A DNA stretch of 64,000 nt from an uncultured Rhodospirillales bacterium (GTDB lineage: Bacteria; Pseudomonadota; Alphaproteobacteria; Azospirillales; Azospirillaceae): NCBI GenBank assembly GCA_903927615.1, contig CAIYNU010000019.1, positions 1-64,000 of the forward strand. The letters are read 5' to 3'. The first letter of the stretch is position 1. The number at the start of each line of letters is the position of its first letter. A model generated the notes under the pieces. The model was not told the DNA's origin. It searched no databases and saw only the letters and a program-made list of their open reading frames with translations. Position numbers and translations under genes: made by a program. Of this stretch, positions 5,401 to 49,321 are shown in pieces.

Positions 5401-6014
5401 CCCGGGCGGCCCTTCTGGCCAGTCAGCAACTCGAAGCCCTGCGCCGGCGGACCGGCATTCAGGAAGCGGCCCAACAAGCTCGGGACGCCGAGCTGCGGGC
5501 GGCCGGTTACGCCCGCCGCTGGGTCCGGTTGTGGGCGGCGCAAGCTCTCCTTGATGCCGCGATTCAGCGGTTTCGCAATGCCAACGAACACCCGCTGATC
5601 AAGCGGGCCGGCGAACTCTTCGCCCTGATCGCGGCCACCGGCCGCAACCCCATCGAGCGCCTGACCGTGGCCTATGGCAAGAAGGACCAGCCGGTGCTGG
5701 TGGCCCTGCGCCGGGACGGCAGTCGTTGTGAGGTCGAGGGCATGAGTGACGGCACCCGAGACCAGCTTTATCTGGCGCTCCGCATCGCCGCGGTGGAGGC
5801 CGCGGCGGCGGCGGGCGAACCCATGCCCTTCATCGCCGACGATCTGTTCATCACCTCCGACGATGAGCGCACCGGCCCGGGTCTCAAGGCGCTGGCCGCG
5901 TTGGGCCAGGTCACTCAGGTCCTGTTGTTCACCCATCACCGCTCGGTGGTCGACACCGCCCGGGCGGTGGTCGAACCCGATGAGTTGCGGGTTCACGGGC
6001 TGGGCGAGGGGTAA
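2472..6014 (+). CDS. YhaN/SbcC-like AAA ATPase, Rad50-type coiled-coil protein
   Basis: A 1180-residue SMC/Rad50-type protein paired with the upstream nuclease. The N-terminal half-ATPase carries Walker A GPNEAGKST (about residues 34-42). A very long Ala/Glu/Arg/Gln-rich coiled-coil region fills residues of roughly 200 to 1000. The C-terminal half-ATPase holds a signature-like MSDGTRDQLYLAL, a Walker B region PFIADDLF and the H-loop LLFTHH. It probably opens and powers the nuclease at DNA ends. No CxxC zinc hook is apparent in the middle of the coiled coil, which fits the YhaN-like branch better than classical SbcC. The start is fixed by the overlap with the preceding stop. Confidence 0.88.
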   Translation: MRLEELFLERYGRFKDFRLALDGGGIRLHVIHGPNEAGKSTALEAISDLLFGFDPRTPYGFAHGYENLLIGATLSNRAGQTLGVKRRKGQKNTLLDAQGVTVLPDAALAPFLGGLSREAFEREFGLDYHRLRSGGDQMLEAKGDLARSLFQASGLADVVKEQETLKDAAEALWSPQRRATGKPLWAALGAYDDARKRMRTESLHAEDWSRAVDAERATRDALAARKTGLEALRRDRNRLQRLRGALPVLARLDALTGQWTPLADAPDLPADFADRWRRAVGQEAAAAAEVHRLTLELGALQTDLEALPAVGPLPAHAARIERMFQKSGDLITKRDDHPKLVRYLEECDGRLAQLIVQLGGQFTPAELERHRPAKPVIARIRERIGRFGALEAEVKARSEQAAAARDALQEAEQAQQALGQPVDPAEARAALDEALKAGDLEARLAAAERAAGQAEAAATAALARLGWGTGTPAALAATPFPGREAVQEAQLARQALDHDHRRGLEARDKAQAEVRRFEGGLRDLEAGAEIPTPEALVHARRHREQGWRLIRGSYIDRTLEVVRATAEYAPETADLPAAYEEAVRRADDLVDRREREAQRVQRYLTLKSHAGEAREEAARQEAALVDITRRIADHQTRWAALWHASGIDPATPAERLSWLQRKDEAVQAAGLRLKAEDEVAGLRRQAVALRDHLLRAGAVLGLAGLDGQPTPALRDKVKAAIDQAARAWTDAERLGRERLRHQRAVDKACDALATARQQRQLWDQAWLQDMPALGLPATASTVEAEAALEIWQAIEKELVDRRQKQDRLQGIESDLEAGRRDVAGLVAELGEDQAGLDGAPADALEHPQRLNQRLKAAQQVLTRREAILSRIAGHQAALAAAGSTRDQASQALAVLRASHGLDATAEPLVEAERAARRRALGERLAEAQRELEVLAAGFSEAELRVAVQGADPDALGAQLQAVEGDEKRLQQDLEDATRAALLASQQLEALRRRTGIQEAAQQARDAELRAAGYARRWVRLWAAQALLDAAIQRFRNANEHPLIKRAGELFALIAATGRNPIERLTVAYGKKDQPVLVALRRDGSRCEVEGMSDGTRDQLYLALRIAAVEAAAAAGEPMPFIADDLFITSDDERTGPGLKALAALGQVTQVLLFTHHRSVVDTARAVVEPDELRVHGLGEG

Positions 6015-6134
6015 AGGGTGTCGGCCAAGTTCCATCGGCGCTTGGGCCGGTTCCGGAAGCGCAAGCACCCTGCCCGCGCCCCCAGGAATGCCCGACAAGC
6101 AGCCGCCGGAACCAACACGGTCCGGAAACGATAA

Positions 6135-6723
6135 TCAGTGCCGCCGCTCCCGCCCGAAGATCTCGGTCAGCGTCCGGGCTTCGACAAAGCGATCGCTCCA
6201 GTCATCCAACTGGTCGAGGTCGGCCGCGCGAACGCGGTCTTCAATACCAGAAGGGAGGCTGTTAAAGCGACGGCGCAGCAAGCGGAGCAGCATCTCCGCT
6301 TTGCCTTCTGCTTTGCCTTCTGCTTTGCCTTCGGCTTTACCTTCGGCGCGACCTTCGGCCATCCATTCCTGTGCGGCGATCGACAGCATTTCGTCCTCCC
6401 ATTCTGGTTTGACCTTGTGAATGACCCGGCGCAACAAAACCGAGTGTACGCCAGCGTACACCGTGGTCGCGTAGACCACCAACATCCTGAACAGTGACGG
6501 AAAATCCCGAGCGTCGGTCAGGGCCTGCACCAGCACCGCCTCGGCGTCACCGTCCTGGTAGGCGTATTTTCCGTGTCATGTAGCCTAATAGTTGCAAAAT
6601 GATACCCGGCTCCGGCCTGCTTTTGTGGTCGATCAGCACATATAGCCGCATCTCCCCGCCGTCCTTGAGCCGGACCCGAAAGAGCCGGTCACAATTTTGT
6701 TGACTAGTTCCTCCATTTTTCAT
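6135..6723 (-). pseudogene. Rpn-family (PD-(D/E)XK, Transposase_31-like) nuclease, truncated and frameshifted
   Basis: Reading leftward from an ATG at 6723, frame one gives a typical Rpn core (DRLFRVRLKDG, then LYVLIDHKSRPEPGIILQLL) and ends early at a TGA near 6549. The rest of the family, from YAYQDGDAEAVLVQALT to the end at 6135, lies in another frame. Dropping one A from the AAAA run at 6567-6570 joins TRK to YAYQ. Roughly 50 N-terminal residues usual for the family are also missing at the edge of the lower-GC insert. The C-terminal half has the characteristic EGKA repeat (EGRAEGKAEGKAEGKAEGKAE-like), encoded by 12-bp repeats near 6300-6360. Confidence 0.8.
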
Positions 6724-6728
6724 ATGAT
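6700..6728 (+). promoter_or_regulatory. Sigma70-type promoter of the ParA-like gene
   Basis: TTGACT at 6700-6705, a 17-base spacer, and TATGAT at 6723-6728. Transcription would start near 6735, leaving a leader of about 28 bases before the ATG at 6763. This is the closest match to the sigma70 consensus that I found in the window, and it supports the downstream start over the TTG at 6697 or ATG at 6724, which lie inside the promoter. Confidence 0.6.
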
Positions 6729-6762
6729 AGTGCGAACTAAATGGCCTAGCGGGCGGGGCGAG

Positions 6763-7800
6763 ATGGAAAAGATTAACGCGTTGGTCGAGCGACAGAACGA
6801 AATTGCGAAAGGCGATTCAACACCGCTCCCGCTTCCGAAGTTTTCCACCTATACCGTTTGCAATCTAAGAGGTGGCATTGGAAAAACTTCTCTTGTGTTT
6901 AATCTGGCATACCTGACGGATAAAATATTAGTGGTAGACACCTGTCCGCAAGGTAATTTATCATATTTTTTTGATAATACTTACTACCAGTCCAGCGCAA
7001 CTTCGGTATATGACATGCTCCTGCCCTTTTTTATGCCCGGCCTGGGCAATGCTAGTCGAGTTGCGCAACTTATTGAAGCAACCAATGAAGACTTTGCAGA
7101 TAAAAAAAGCTATTTTATTCCCTCATCCGATAACCTCTACATTCTTCCATCACAAATAGCCAACGCGCTTGCTCAAGCAAGAACTGTGCCCGGTAGCACG
7201 CAACAAACTATGATAGACAATATGTTATTTTCATTGAAACGGGAGATAGACCGGGAACAACGGGAAACACAAACCGAACGGTGTTTGATTGATACTTCGC
7301 CATTTTTTTCTGGATGTACACACCTAGCCTGGCATGCCAGCGACGCGCTTATCATACCCGTTAGAACTGATCAACAATCAATAAATTCATTAAATTTGTT
7401 GATTAACACTCTTTCAAACTCATCAAGTGAGTTTAGAAGAACCATGCCATCGAACGGACACACTCCACGAATTCAGCTTGTGGTGTTGACCCACTGCGGA
7501 TGGTCGACGCGGGCGGGAGCAAAAAATGAACCTAATCAGCAAACAAAGGTATTCCTAGAGCAAGTAAGAGATATCATTAATCGTAATATCACCCATTTTA
7601 CAACAAACAACCCTGATGATCATATAGTATTGCTGGATGACTTTCTAGGAAGCGGGCGCATATCATCAGCTCGTTCTCGGCCTATAGAGTTACTTAAACA
7701 TGGGGACACCATGACAATTAATAGGGTAAAAACGGACGTGAACGCTTCGGTTGAAAAAATTAAGAGTCAACTTAAGTTTATTAACGCCAGCATCTGGTAA
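6763..7800 (+). CDS. Orphan ParA/MinD-family P-loop ATPase
   Basis: A 345-residue deviant-Walker ATPase: NLRGGIGKTSLVFNLAY (about residues 35-51) matches the KGGxGKT motif with Arg in place of the first Lys, LVVDTCPQGNLS is the A' block, and CLIDTSPF lies where Walker B is expected. There is no N-terminal helix-turn-helix and no ParB or centromere-like repeat nearby, so a partition role is not supported. The gene is visibly less GC-rich than its neighbours (many AAT, ATT, TTA codons), a sign of lateral transfer. It lies next to a decayed Rpn gene. Function is unknown; orphan ParA proteins may position cargo or belong to mobile-element modules. Confidence 0.8.
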   Translation: MEKINALVERQNEIAKGDSTPLPLPKFSTYTVCNLRGGIGKTSLVFNLAYLTDKILVVDTCPQGNLSYFFDNTYYQSSATSVYDMLLPFFMPGLGNASRVAQLIEATNEDFADKKSYFIPSSDNLYILPSQIANALAQARTVPGSTQQTMIDNMLFSLKREIDREQRETQTERCLIDTSPFFSGCTHLAWHASDALIIPVRTDQQSINSLNLLINTLSNSSSEFRRTMPSNGHTPRIQLVVLTHCGWSTRAGAKNEPNQQTKVFLEQVRDIINRNITHFTTNNPDDHIVLLDDFLGSGRISSARSRPIELLKHGDTMTINRVKTDVNASVEKIKSQLKFINASIW

Positions 7801-7916
7801 GCAGCACGATGGCTTTACTTCCTCCATAAACAAATTCACTGATCCGCTATCGCAAGGCCAGGGCGGGGACGGCGGTGAGGCCGACCACGCGCTGGCTGAT
7901 GGGAAGGTGACTGGGT

Positions 7917-9872
7917 TCAGCTCTGCAAAGCCGGCACATCCCGGAATTGCTCCAGGGATTCCGGGTTGGCCAGGGCGTCGGTGTTCTTGACCGGGCGGCC
8001 GTGGATCACGTCGCGGACCGCCAGTTCGGTGATCTTGCCGCTTTTGGTGCGGGGAATGTCGGTCACCTGGACGATGCGGGCCGGAATGTGGCGGGGCGAG
8101 GCGCCGTCGCGAATCTGGACCCGGATGGCTTGCTCCAACGCGAGACTGAGAGCGACACCGTCGCGCAGACGCACGAACAACACCACCCGCACGTCATTCT
8201 CCCACTGCTGGCCGATGGCCAGGCACTCCAGCACCTCCTCCAGCTTTTCCACCTGCCGGTAAATCTCCGAGGTGCCGATCCGCACGCCGCCGGGATTCAA
8301 CGTGGCATCCGACCGGCCGTAGATGATCAGGCCATCGTGAGCGGTCAGCTCGACGAAGTCGCCATGACACCAGACATTGGGGAAACGGTCGAAGTAGGCT
8401 TGGACATACTTCCGGCCGTCGGGATCGTTCCAGAAGCCGACCGGCATCGACGGGAATGGCTTGGTGCAGACCAGTTCGCCCTTGGTCCGCCGGACCGATT
8501 GCCCCCGGTCATCGAACACCTCCACCGCCATGCCCAGACCGCGGGTCTGCAACTCGCCACGCCAGACCGGGCCGACCGGATTGCCCAGCGCAAAGCACGA
8601 CAGCAGATCGGTGCCGCCGGAAATCGAGGCCAGATGCAGATCGGCTTTGATCGCGCGATACACATAGTCAAAACTTTCCGGCGCCAGCGGCGATCCGGTG
8701 GAGGCCAGGGTGCGCAGGCTGGACAGCTTGTGGGTGTGGTTGGGGTGGAAACCCAGCTTGTGCAGGGCATCAATGTATTTGGCCGACGTCCCGAAAAAGG
8801 TCATGCCTTCGGTATCGGCGAAATCGAACAGCACATTCCCGCTGGGATGAAACGGCGAGCCGTCGTAAAGCAACAGCGTCGCCTCCGAGGCCAGGGCCGT
8901 GACCAGCCAGTTCCACATCATCCAGCCCAGAGTCGTAAAGTAGAACACCCGATCGCCGGACTTGATGTCGCAATGCAACCGGTGCTCCTTGATATGCTGG
9001 AGCAGCGTGCCGCCGGCGCCATGAACGATACATTTCGGCACGCCGGTCGTACCGCTGGAGAACATGATATAAATCGGGTGGTTGAAGGGCAGCCGCTCGA
9101 ACCCGATGGGGGCCGGAACCACGCCGGCCAGGGCCTCGTCCCAACGCACCGCATCGGCAAGGCCGATCAGGTTGGGGCGCTCGGTGGTATACGGAACCAC
9201 CACGGTCCGAATCACCCCGGGCAGTCCGGCGCGGATCGCCCGCAACTTTTCCAGACCGTCAAAGGCCTTGCCACCGTAGAAATAACCGTCGGCGGCGAAC
9301 AGCACCTTGGGCTCGATCTGGCCGAAGCGATCAAGCACCCCCTGGACGCCGAAATCCGGGCTGGCCGAACACCACACCGCGCCGATGGCGGTGGTCGCCA
9401 GCATCGCCACCACCGCTTCCGGCATATTCGGCAGATAGCCCGCGACCCGGTCGCCGACGCCGACGCCGAGACCGCGCAACACTTGGGTCCACTGGCCGAC
9501 CCGCTCATAGAGTTCGGCGTAACTCAGCGTCCGCTGGACGCAGTCTTCGCCCCAAAACCGAATCGCCAGCCCGCGATCGCGCCGGCGCAACAAGTTCTCG
9601 GCAAAATTGAGCCGGGCCTCGGGGAAGAACCGCGCACCGGGCATGCGACCGCCATCGACCAACCCCGGTCCACCCCGGGTCTCGGCAACCACCCCGCCAT
9701 AATCCCAGATTTCCGACCAGAACGCCTCGGGCTCTGCCACCGACCAGGCCCGTAGCGCCGCGAAATCGGGAAAAGTCAAGCCATGCCGGGCCGTCATCCG
9801 GGCCATGAAGGCCGTAACATTGGCCTCGGCCACCCGTTCCGCCGACGGCGTCCACAATGGTTGTGACGACAT
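7917..9872 (-). CDS. aacS: Acetoacetyl-CoA synthetase (acetoacetate--CoA ligase)
   Basis: This 651-residue enzyme activates acetoacetate with ATP and CoA in the cytosol, feeding ketone bodies into thiolase or PHA metabolism. It carries the ANL-family AMP-binding motif [16 protein letters not shown] (about residue 280), the characteristic LNFAENLL near residue 95, [20 protein letters not shown] in the hinge region and the catalytic-lysine block [10 protein letters not shown] near the C-terminus. Length matches AacS. The ATG at 9872 follows a strong ribosome binding site (GGGGGGAG). It lies downstream of the yej genes but is separated from them by 216 bases containing a palindromic repeat, so it probably has its own promoter. 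Confidence 0.93.
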
Positions 9873-41143: not shown

Positions 41144-42061
41144 ATGGCCAAACGTCAAGCGCGGGACGGACTGATCATTGACGCGGAACCCGATGCCGAG
41201 GGCATGGGGCCGCCGCGGGTCAGCGTCGGTCAGCGGGTGATCGACTTTACGCCGCCGCCGCCCGAACAGGACGTTCTCGACAGCCCGCTGGTCATCACTC
41301 AACGTCCGCGCGTCATTCTGCCCCAGCGGACCTGGCTTGACGGTTGCTTCGACGGTTTCCTGTCTTTTCTGCGAACCGAGGAGGAGGCCAAGCGTCAGGA
41401 CGCCCACCGAACCATTGCCGAGTTGATCGCCATGGCCTGGCCCCGGGCGCTTGCGGGGTTGCGGCAGAAGGGATGGCTGACCGAGACCGCGAACCCGGTC
41501 CGGCCGCTCCGCCACGCCCAACAGTTGATCGCGCCGCTGGAGAAAATGATCGGGGTGCCGCCCCAGCTCGCCACCGAGCGCCGGGCGTTGGAAATCCTGC
41601 TGGCGATGATCCTCCGCGAACTCGCGAAAAAGCTGTCGGAGCGACAAGGCACCGAGTTCGTCTTCGAGTCGAGATCCCGAGTCCATGGTTTGATCGGCTA
41701 TAAACATGAACGCCTGCTGAAGGCGATTACGGTTCCCGACGAACGCTTCGAGACGATCCAAGATATTTTCAATAATTATTATCAATCCACCCATTATTAC
41801 CATTGCTCTTTGCTGACTCGCGACTTTCCCATCAATGAAGGGACGTTATTCGGCCTGTATTGCCGGGCGGTATTTTTCATGGCTCGGGTCGACCGCGACG
41901 GAACCCTGCGGCCCAAGCCGATTCGCGCCCGATTGCCCCGACGTGATCGGATCCTGTTCCTGCTGACCCGCGATAAGGCGCTGCGGCGCCGCTACGGCCG
42001 GGATCCCGACTATGCCGCCCGTATCCGGGCGCTGGTCCGGGCCTTTCCCGACGGCCATTGA
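41144..42061 (+). CDS. Hypothetical protein
   Basis: A 305-residue soluble protein I do not recognise. It has a flexible acidic/proline N-terminus (FTPPPPEQDVLDSP), a helical middle (DAHRTIAELIAMAWPRALAG and ALEILLAMILRELAKKLSER) and a Tyr/His/Asn-rich block (IFNNYYQSTHYYHCSLLTRD) before a basic C-terminus. The stretch from about 41690 to 41880 is locally AT-rich. It follows zapE by 72 bases on the same strand, so a shared transcript is possible. Confidence 0.7.
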   Translation: MAKRQARDGLIIDAEPDAEGMGPPRVSVGQRVIDFTPPPPEQDVLDSPLVITQRPRVILPQRTWLDGCFDGFLSFLRTEEEAKRQDAHRTIAELIAMAWPRALAGLRQKGWLTETANPVRPLRHAQQLIAPLEKMIGVPPQLATERRALEILLAMILRELAKKLSERQGTEFVFESRSRVHGLIGYKHERLLKAITVPDERFETIQDIFNNYYQSTHYYHCSLLTRDFPINEGTLFGLYCRAVFFMARVDRDGTLRPKPIRARLPRRDRILFLLTRDKALRRRYGRDPDYAARIRALVRAFPDGH

Positions 42062-46990: not shown

Positions 46991-47827
46991 TCAGGACCGG
47001 GATGCCCCGGCTTCGAACGACGCCCGGTGCTGGGCGTGCAACATGAGAATTTCCGCGGCGGTTTCCTCGATGGACCGGCGCGACACATCGATCACCGGCC
47101 AGCCCTTGCGGGTGAAGTAACGGCGGGCGTCCATCACCTCCTGCTTCACGACTTCCGGATCGGCGTAGGTCATGTCGACGCCGGGATTGAGCAGGCGCAA
47201 GCGGTTACGCCGGATTTGCAGCAAGCGTTCAGGATCATTGGTCAGGCCGACGATCAGCGGCCGGACGATCTGGTCCAGTTCCGGCGGCAAGGCACACCCC
47301 GGCACGAACGGGACGTTGGCGGCCTTGATGCCGCGGTTGGCCAGGTAAATGCAGGTGGGGGACTTGGAGGTTCGGGACACGCCCACCAACACCACGTCAG
47401 CCTCGTACAACTCCCAGGTGGCTTGTCCGTCGTCATGAACCAACGCGAAGTCCATGGCGTCCATCCGGGAAAAGTATCCGGCGTTCAGGATGTGCTGCCG
47501 TCCAGGCTGCCGTTGCGACTCGACGCCGAGATAAGTCCCCAGCGCGCTGATCAGCGGGTCCAGCACCGAAACACAGGGAACCGGCAGCTCCCGGCAAAAC
47601 TCTTCGAGTCGCCGCCTGATCGCTTCGTCGACCAGCGTGAACATCACAAGCCCGGGACACGCTTTGATACCGTCAAATACCACATCAAGCTGCCGTTGCG
47701 TGCGAACAAGATTCCACAAATGTTCATTTGGTTCGACATTATCGAACTGGCTGACACAGGCGCGAGCAATACTGTTGACAGTTTCTCCCGTTGCGTCGGA
47801 CACCAGATGGAGATGGAAGGCGCGCAT
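46991..47827 (-). CDS. ppsR: Pyruvate, water dikinase regulatory protein (bifunctional kinase/phosphorylase)
   Basis: A 278-residue DUF299-family protein that phosphorylates and dephosphorylates PEP synthase or pyruvate, phosphate dikinase, depending on ADP and Pi. Family blocks: FHLHLVSDATGETV at the start, the P-loop-like GVSRTSKSPTCIYLAN, and YFTRKGWPVIDVSRRSIEET near the end. It is the first leftward gene beside the origin; a DnaA-box-like TTATCCCCA touches its start codon. Confidence 0.93.
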   Translation of the reverse strand: MRAFHLHLVSDATGETVNSIARACVSQFDNVEPNEHLWNLVRTQRQLDVVFDGIKACPGLVMFTLVDEAIRRRLEEFCRELPVPCVSVLDPLISALGTYLGVESQRQPGRQHILNAGYFSRMDAMDFALVHDDGQATWELYEADVVLVGVSRTSKSPTCIYLANRGIKAANVPFVPGCALPPELDQIVRPLIVGLTNDPERLLQIRRNRLRLLNPGVDMTYADPEVVKQEVMDARRYFTRKGWPVIDVSRRSIEETAAEILMLHAQHRASFEAGASRS

Positions 47828-48238
47828 TTATCCCCAGGCCCCTGTGCATAACCCGATCGTGTCGGTGGATAAGATCGCGCTTTGGCCACGTGGGCCAGAT
47901 CTATCCCCGATCACCCGTCATCCATCCCCGGACTTGTACCCATGGGGATCTTTTTTCGCCACTTCTTTGCACAGTGGGGATGCCCGCCCCCCGCCCGATC
48001 TTATCCCCGGGACTCACCGGACCTGCGGCCAAGCAGAAACCGGCGATTCCGGCAAGCATCCACCGACTTATCCACAGCCCCGATCACCGCCCGTCGCCCA
48101 GGCCCCGCCTGTGGATAAGTCGGGGATAATAAGTTATCCCCATTCTGAGTCGGTAACCACAATCCTCCACTAAAAGTACTTCAATAAGACTCTTACTCTG
48201 ATTTAGGGGGTTGCCTTTCGGGTCAGGCTGCTGCTTCC
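47828..48238. other. oriC: Putative chromosomal replication origin (oriC)
   Basis: The gap between divergent ppsR and hemE carries many DnaA-type 9-mers. Perfect TTATCCACA lies at 48068-48076, its complement TGTGGATAA at 48110-48118, and TGTGCATAA at 47843-47851. Near-matches are TTATCCCCA at 47828 and 48134, GGTGGATAA at 47864, TTATCCCCG at 48001 and its complement at 48121. An AT-richer stretch (about 48167-48206) next to hemE could be the unwinding element. Four GANTC sites (48011, 48045, 48147, 48188) would be CcrM targets. Adjacency to hemE matches Caulobacter and other alphaproteobacteria, and flanking genes run away on both sides. Confidence 0.82.
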
Positions 48239-49321
48239 ATGCGGTCATTGGTGTCCCAGCCAACGGACCACGCCGTGAGTGCTTTCCCAAAGCCGTTCCT
48301 CGCCGCCCTGAGCGGTCAAGTCCTTGACCGACCGCCCTTCTGGCTGATGCGCCAGGCTGGCCGGTACCTGCCCGAATACCGCAAGGTTCGCCAACAGGCG
48401 GGCAGTTTCCTCGATTTGTGCCTGAGCCCTGATCAGGCTTGTGAGGTGACGGTTCAACCGTTACGTCGATACGGCATGGATGCCGCGATTCTGTTTTCAG
48501 ATATCCTGATGGTTCCGTATGGACTGGGACAACGGCTGGACTATGTTGAAGGTGAAGGACCGCAGCTCGAGCCGATCACCGCAGCCAGTGATCTGGTGCG
48601 GCTGTCCACCGATGGTTTTCACCACCGGCTGGCGCCGGTTTACCAGACGGTTCGACAGGTCCTCAAAGCCCTTCCGGATCACACCGCCCTGATCGGTTTT
48701 GCGGGATCCCCCTGGACCGTCGCGTGTTACATGGTTCAGGGTGGCGGCTCCAAGGAATGGGATAAAGTCAAAGGATTTGCCTACCGGGACCCGATCGGCT
48801 TTGCCGCCTTGATCGCGCTACTGGAAACCGTCACCGTCGATTACCTGGCGGCGCAAATCGAGGCCGGCGCCGAGGCGGTCCAATTGTTTGACAGTTGGGC
48901 CGGTATTCTGCCGCCAAATCCATTCCGCCGATTGGTCATCGAACCAACCCGTCGGATTGTGGCCGCATTGAAGCACCGCTTCCCTGACGTTCCGATCATC
49001 GGGTTTCCCCGGGGTGCCGGGGTTATGATCGAGGCGTATCTGCTGGAAACCGGAATCGATGCGGTGGCGCTGGATACCACCGTTCCGCCGGCGTGGGCCG
49101 CAAGCCGCCTTCAGGTCCACCGACCGGTCCAGGGCAATCTGGATCCGATCCTGGTGGTGGCCGGGGGCAACACCATGGCCACAGAAGTGGACGAGATTTT
49201 GCGCGCGTTATCGGGCGGACCGTTCATCTTCAATCTGGGTCATGGGGTTGCCCAGGTCACGCCCCCCGATCATGTCGGACACCTGGCAGACCTGATCCGT
49301 TCCTGGCCGGAGCGTCGATAA
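48239..49321 (+). CDS. hemE: Uroporphyrinogen decarboxylase
   Basis: A 360-residue cytosolic enzyme converting uroporphyrinogen III to coproporphyrinogen III. The signature PPFWLMRQAGRYLPEYRKVR is near residue 35, followed by LFSDILMVPYGLGQ and FAGSPWTVACYMVQGGGSKE. ATG 48239 lacks a strong ribosome binding site; GTG 48275 is an alternative. It begins a hemE-hemH-hemJ run with one-base and four-base overlaps. Confidence 0.94.
   Translation: MRSLVSQPTDHAVSAFPKPFLAALSGQVLDRPPFWLMRQAGRYLPEYRKVRQQAGSFLDLCLSPDQACEVTVQPLRRYGMDAAILFSDILMVPYGLGQRLDYVEGEGPQLEPITAASDLVRLSTDGFHHRLAPVYQTVRQVLKALPDHTALIGFAGSPWTVACYMVQGGGSKEWDKVKGFAYRDPIGFAALIALLETVTVDYLAAQIEAGAEAVQLFDSWAGILPPNPFRRLVIEPTRRIVAALKHRFPDVPIIGFPRGAGVMIEAYLLETGIDAVALDTTVPPAWAASRLQVHRPVQGNLDPILVVAGGNTMATEVDEILRALSGGPFIFNLGHGVAQVTPPDHVGHLADLIRSWPERR

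Follow-up and report, generated by a model that had tools for sequence, protein, structure and literature searches.

A 411-bp gap between hemE and a ppsR-like gene as the very probable chromosomal replication origin of an uncultured alphaproteobacterium

The intergenic gap at 47828..48238 (411 bp, 57.7% GC) is, in our reading, very probably the chromosomal oriC of the alphaproteobacterium from which the window comes (the window being the whole stretch of 64,000 nucleotides that was analysed), and an origin of the kind flanked by hemE and a COG1806 gene. The original prediction of an origin at this place is supported by DnaA sites that cluster in the gap, by the conservation of box positions, by a divergent synteny kept in 54/54 loci, by parS sites at 6-25 kb in four relatives, and by negative skew that stops at the gap of one relative (G043). 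The gap coordinates and the transcription of both boundary genes away from the gap were also as predicted: on the left lies a COG1806-type kinase/pyrophosphorylase gene on the minus strand (ppsR-like, 46991..47827; PF03618 with E 7.2e-92, NF003742 above cut-off), and on the right hemE starts at 48239 on the plus strand (48239..49321; TIGR01464 above cut-off, PF01208). We take COG1806/DUF299 to be the same as PF03618. The name ppsR should be read loosely, because the NCBIfam PpsR model scores 162.9 against a cut-off of 350 and only the broader NF003742 passes. Further out, maf and aroE lie to the left of the ppsR-like gene, and hemH, hemJ (UPF0093), rho and ychF to the right of hemE. The genome of the window is a draft of 104 contigs, of which the one bearing the window measures 70 kb; its dnaA is found on another contig (C34). 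Elsewhere in the window, at 41144-42061 on the plus strand, an ORF of 305 aa went without a hit in Pfam and NCBIfam at E 0.001; it is flanked by an ORF that by eye resembles zapE/AFG1 and by another whose TAXI match stays below the cut-off.

The gap holds two perfect copies of the DnaA box TTATCCACA, at 48068..48076 (plus strand) and 48110..48118 (minus strand). At least three consensus-type 9-mers had been claimed; the third, at 47843..47851 on the minus strand, reads TTATGCACA and carries one mismatch. The several near-matches were located as TTATCCCCA at 47828..47836 and 48134..48142 (both plus strand), the latter being the final box ahead of the low-stability patch, and as TTATCCACC at 47864..47872 (minus strand, one mismatch). 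To these can be added a TTATCCCC box at 48122..48129 (minus strand), a core ATCCAC at 48058..48063 (plus strand) and a series of weak cores, namely TATCCCC at 47902..47908 and ATCCCC at 47924..47929 on the plus strand, and ATCCCCA at 47943..47949 and 47975..47981 on the minus strand. Both of the latter contain the W-box TCCCCA, which is present four times in the gap, a number reached by 3 of 1000 shuffles.

When counted against dinucleotide shuffles of the gap, this concentration stands well above chance, as would be looked for in an oriC of the hemE/COG1806 type. All seven copies of TTATCCMC in the 64-kb window fall in the gap (shuffle mean 0.07; 0/1000 reach seven), together with twelve ATCCMC cores (shuffle mean 1.31; 0/1000 reach twelve), and among 411-bp windows taken at 50-bp steps outside the gap, none has as many copies of either pattern. 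The signal is one of clustering and not of total number. Over the whole window, TTATCCACA with at most one mismatch is not enriched (seven matches, six of them in the gap; 12/100 shuffles reach seven), and whole-genome box totals are not above those of a reversed-pattern control (13 against 14; for TTATCCMCA, 26 against 26). Four of the 26 TTATCCMCA of the genome nevertheless lie within a stretch of 315 bp, and elsewhere in the list never more than two are close together. A point against is that the gap of the relative G006 contains two TTATCCMCA, a number that two other spots in its genome also reach.

Many boxes, weak as well as strong, packed this closely could also be expected of a site that titrates DnaA without being an origin, datA being the name for a site of this sort. 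A titrating site would leave unexplained the skew change, the proximity of parS and the widespread hemE/COG1806 synteny, and we consider that the gap is almost certainly not of this nature. Other close box pairs were considered as candidates and set aside: no matching DNA was found at the boxes of the pair on contig C70 and of the G006 pairs at 3.587 and 2.061 Mb (one 36-bp match lies away from the boxes), and the pair on contig C43 belongs to the upstream region of a plasmid RepA gene. On C43, the two perfect boxes are in tandem (L121:9719-9739), about 240 bp upstream of the RepA gene (PF04796, 9975-10937), and the DNA upstream, read in reverse, yields the peptide RHNIT repeatedly, a sign that iterons may be present. 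C43 is probably a second replicon of the same organism.

The predicted AT-richer patch was confirmed and can be placed at 48147..48206, the 60-bp segment of lowest stability in the gap and a probable DNA-unwinding element. It starts 4 nt past the final box (48134-48142) and is as easily melted as an unwinding element should be; within the 64 kb, only 0.42% of windows of this length have a lower stability, and eight other spots are as unstable. A search for a DnaA-trio after the final plus-strand box found no trio-like run: the longest was 1 in the window, and the mean was 1.5 over the 30 gaps compared with 1.19 for shuffled letters. The test is a weak one, because in several gaps a different box stands next to the AT patch. 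At some distance from the gap, window positions 6001-9000 have a GC content of 0.51-0.54 against about 0.63 on the flanks, and several spots at 6877-7645 have very low stability; this is possibly an acquired stretch.

From this layout, we infer how DnaA binding, the order of filling, the place of unwinding and initiation itself could be arranged in the gap. DnaA would nucleate on the strong boxes at 48068 and 48110, and probably on those at 47843 and 47864. As DnaA-ATP rises, the weak ATCCCC/TCCCCA sites in between would be filled, and the oligomer beside the final box at 48134 would then open the AT-rich 48147-48206 and allow helicase loading.

Conservation among relatives argues for the same reading. 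The divergent ppsR-like/hemE pair was found in 54/54 distinct loci having both genes (78 loci examined, 57 with both genes, minus the three duplicates L032-L034 of L002-L004, which were excluded from gap counts), with an estimated gap of 279-1199 bp, the gap ends in relatives being set from tblastn matches and not from mapped starts. Twenty hemE loci (L055-L059, L064-L078) had no ppsR-like match in the sequence examined, 13/59 relatives had no ppsR-like match at all, and 16 of the 46 genomes with such a match yielded no locus. TTATCCMC is present in 5/5 gaps of the genus, 24/25 of the other gaps of the family and 19/24 of the wider alphaproteobacterial gaps, and none of 100 shuffles reached any of these totals. 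Exact 9-mers are scarce in the 25 family gaps from other genera (one in 17 gaps, none in 8). In the genus alignment (n=5), the boxes at 47828, 48001, 48068, 48110 and 48134 keep their position and orientation; at 4/5 of them the seventh base swaps between A (strong) and C (weak), with a few other changes. The locus L002 keeps only ATCCCC at box 48001, with no GANTC. The same box skeleton is seen in the family alignment, which took in 21 of the 54 gaps.

One of these conserved boxes deserves separate attention. The near-match at 47828-47836, said in the original prediction to touch the ppsR-like start codon, directly abuts it; on the strand of the gene it reads TGGGGATAA followed by ATG, in the ribosome-binding position, and it may serve as a ribosome-binding sequence. 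It is TATCCMCA in 5/5 gaps of the genus, and TCCCCA occurs near the ppsR-like start in 4 of 16 other gaps of the family alignment. In 2/5 genus gaps the box reads TGTGGATA on the gene strand, and because this is less like a ribosome-binding site, the role of the box leans to DnaA. The proposed repression of ppsR by DnaA at this box is unproven, the same bases holding the ribosome-binding position. This box, and the fact that two genes start here in opposite directions, would suit a divergent promoter region in which both genes are regulated by DnaA and which is not an origin. We judge this highly unlikely, since the twelve box cores and the low-stability patch fit an origin better, as do the conserved order of the boxes, the end of negative skew in G043 and the parS sites nearby in four relatives.

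GC skew had been named as one check on the original prediction, and its outcome in four single-contig relatives was mixed: G043 supports the gap, G006 and G010 give no usable signal, and G046 changes sign some 39-59 kb away. The initial survey took 20 sampled 20-kb stretches per genome with 200 permutations. In G043, which belongs to the same class, a two-half model accounts for 91% of the sampled skew variance (0/200 permutations). In 5-kb bins, 14/14 bins up to 3,605,000 are negative and 21/26 of the bins read from 3,605,001 on are positive, the gap boxes lying at 3,605,473-3,605,499. The cumulative skew (-0.978 at 3,605,000, -0.973 at 3,615,000 and -0.972 at 3,645,000) has a floor that is flat over about 40 kb, with the gap at its left edge. 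The gap of G043 also has the only TTATCCMCA pair within 1 kb in that genome's list. In G006 and G010, 153/200 and 122/200 permutations reach the fit of the sampled skew, and in G006 a nearly contiguous reading over 380 kb around the gap showed no switch. The signal of G046 is weak (15/200 permutations reach the fit), its skew turning positive within 2,150,001-2,170,000, on the hemE side of the gap; the offset perhaps reflects a rearrangement near the origin.

The parS sites give a second mark. A search with GTTNCACGTGNAAC in G006, G010, G043 and G046 placed 9/10 sites 6-25 kb from the ppsR-like gene, and the reversed GTTNCACGTGNAAC control pattern gave none. The distances are 8.6 and 12.0 kb in G006 (a third site is 142 kb away), 16.2-24.9 kb in G010, 13.5 and 15.5 kb in G043, and 6.3 and 8.7 kb in G046. 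In G007 and G048, parAB is on the contig of the gap, within about 30 kb. In the genome of the window, three parS sites lie with parA, parB, the end of gidA and mnmE on contig C53, another contig than that of the gap, and in G004, of the same genus, parAB/parS are also on a different contig. In G003, of the same genus too, a single contig holds mnmE-gidA-parA-parB adjoining rho-hemJ-hemH-hemE-gap-ppsR. On C53 (L191, L192), mnmE stands apart from gidA and on the opposite strand, like in G004, while in G003 mnmE-gidA-parA-parB all run in one direction. Exceptions to a parAB position near ori occur in Rhodospirillales (PMC8116508).

These two marks also bear on whether the true origin is at dnaA, the position it has in many bacteria and the one suggested for Rhodospirillum centenum, in which no strong skew inflection was seen and the dnaA/dnaN area was named as a possible general location (PMC2890560). 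The counts in G006 point both ways: within a 20-kb region around dnaA, the highest number in any 411 bp is 4 for ATCCMC and 1 for TTATCCMC, compared with 5 and 3, respectively, at the gap. In G043, dnaA is 136 kb from the gap and from the end of negative skew, with positive skew after it and 20 kb near zero before it. An origin at dnaA is extremely improbable in our view. By gene order, parS and boxes, the origin of G006 more likely lies at about 2,881,700 on C1, about 246 kb from dnaA; if G006 is Rhodospirillum centenum, its origin is more likely at about 2.882 Mb than at the tentative position near dnaA, 3.128 Mb (PMC2890560). The gap places an origin for a genus represented here only by drafts (104 to 310 contigs), and for a family whose two tested single-contig members show weak skew and in which dnaA is located elsewhere.

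The four GANTC sites of the original prediction were located at 48011, 48045 (48045..48049, GATTC), 48147 (48147..48151, GAGTC) and 48188 (48188..48192, GACTC). Their number was discarded as origin evidence for this gap, 76/1000 shuffles and 42/1272 sliding windows reaching four. GANTC is rarer than expected in the 64-kb window (182 against 246; all 100 shuffles reach 182) and is enriched in the 25 family gaps from other genera (123 against 63.2; 0/100 shuffles); it is not clearly enriched in the genus gaps (13 against 8.6; 7/100 shuffles), nor enriched in the 24 gaps of the wider alphaproteobacterial set (30 against 38.0). One site stands in a recurring arrangement: at 48001..48015 on the plus strand, a composite TTATCCCC-GG-GACTC leaves 2 nt between a weak DnaA box and a GANTC, a layout found in 18/30 genus and family gaps. 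The pattern T(T/C)(A/T)TCC(A/C)C-NN-GANTC occurs in 4/5 genus gaps and 14/25 other family gaps, and in none of 100 shuffles per set, a post hoc test in that the pattern was chosen after viewing the alignments. Because of this, and because members of one genus are not independent, its presence in 7/10 genera is the safer figure. The strict composite is absent from the 24 wider alphaproteobacterial gaps, 3/24 having a looser form. No report of such a composite was found in the literature searched, as far as the available text of those sources goes, and this does not prove that there is none.

The genome of the window encodes a CcrM-like methylase (PF01555 with RAMA), adjoining an RNase HII gene, as well as GcrA. 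It could be imagined that the origins of this family carry a fixed TTATCC(A/C)C plus 2 nt plus GANTC (48001-48015) at which CcrM methylation tunes DnaA loading, so as to form a once-per-cycle gate; we regard this as unlikely. Conservation of the composite through a hemE promoter controlled by CcrM/GcrA is an equally open explanation. In Caulobacter, loss of CcrM leaves a wild-type-like DNA content profile, and the authors concluded that CcrM is not required for the control of initiation, which argues against a strong general role (PMC3973325). The box-GANTC element is nevertheless a concrete place for asking whether CcrM touches initiation outside Caulobacter.

Compared with known origins, the oriC of Escherichia coli has boundary genes other than hemE/COG1806, and GATC with Dam/SeqA where the gap has GANTC with CcrM; the proposed gate would resemble Dam/SeqA in its working, though not in its construction, and would act in origins that lack full CtrA consensus sites. 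The perfect 9-mer is shared with Escherichia coli, as are low-affinity sites that outnumber high-affinity ones (PMC4285127). For Azospirillum, which is probably in the same family as our organism, a typical chromosomal OriC is reported on the largest replicon of each strain only, the available text giving neither a position nor a box map (PMC3899980). The origins of Rickettsia and Caulobacter lie between hemE and the COG1806 gene, so that the parallel drawn at the outset with a Caulobacter origin adjoining hemE is in print (PMC1914354). The oriC of Rickettsia prowazekii shares both boundary genes and differs in composition, with 82.55% AT (PMC1914354) against 57.7% GC in the gap. The Cori of Caulobacter crescentus is similar in its hemE/COG1806 flanks, its few strong 9-mers with weak TCCCCA W-boxes, its AT-rich patch and its several GANTC sites (PMC1914354, PMC4285127, PMC3973325), and the weak sites of the gap fit the W-box TCCCCA described there (PMC4285127). 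Its strong box, in contrast, is TGATCCACA where the gap has TTATCCACA, the location of dnaA on another contig is a further difference, and the gap lacks a full CtrA site TTAA-N7-TTAA. Because this full site was sought and found in 0/54 gaps, our own included, we do not class the gap as a CtrA-regulated Cori of the Caulobacter type. In our own gap, the half-site TTAA and the single IHF consensus tried, WATCAANNNNTTR, also gave no match. Altogether, we see the gap as an ordinary and well-conserved oriC of the hemE/COG1806 kind, with a few details specific to its family.
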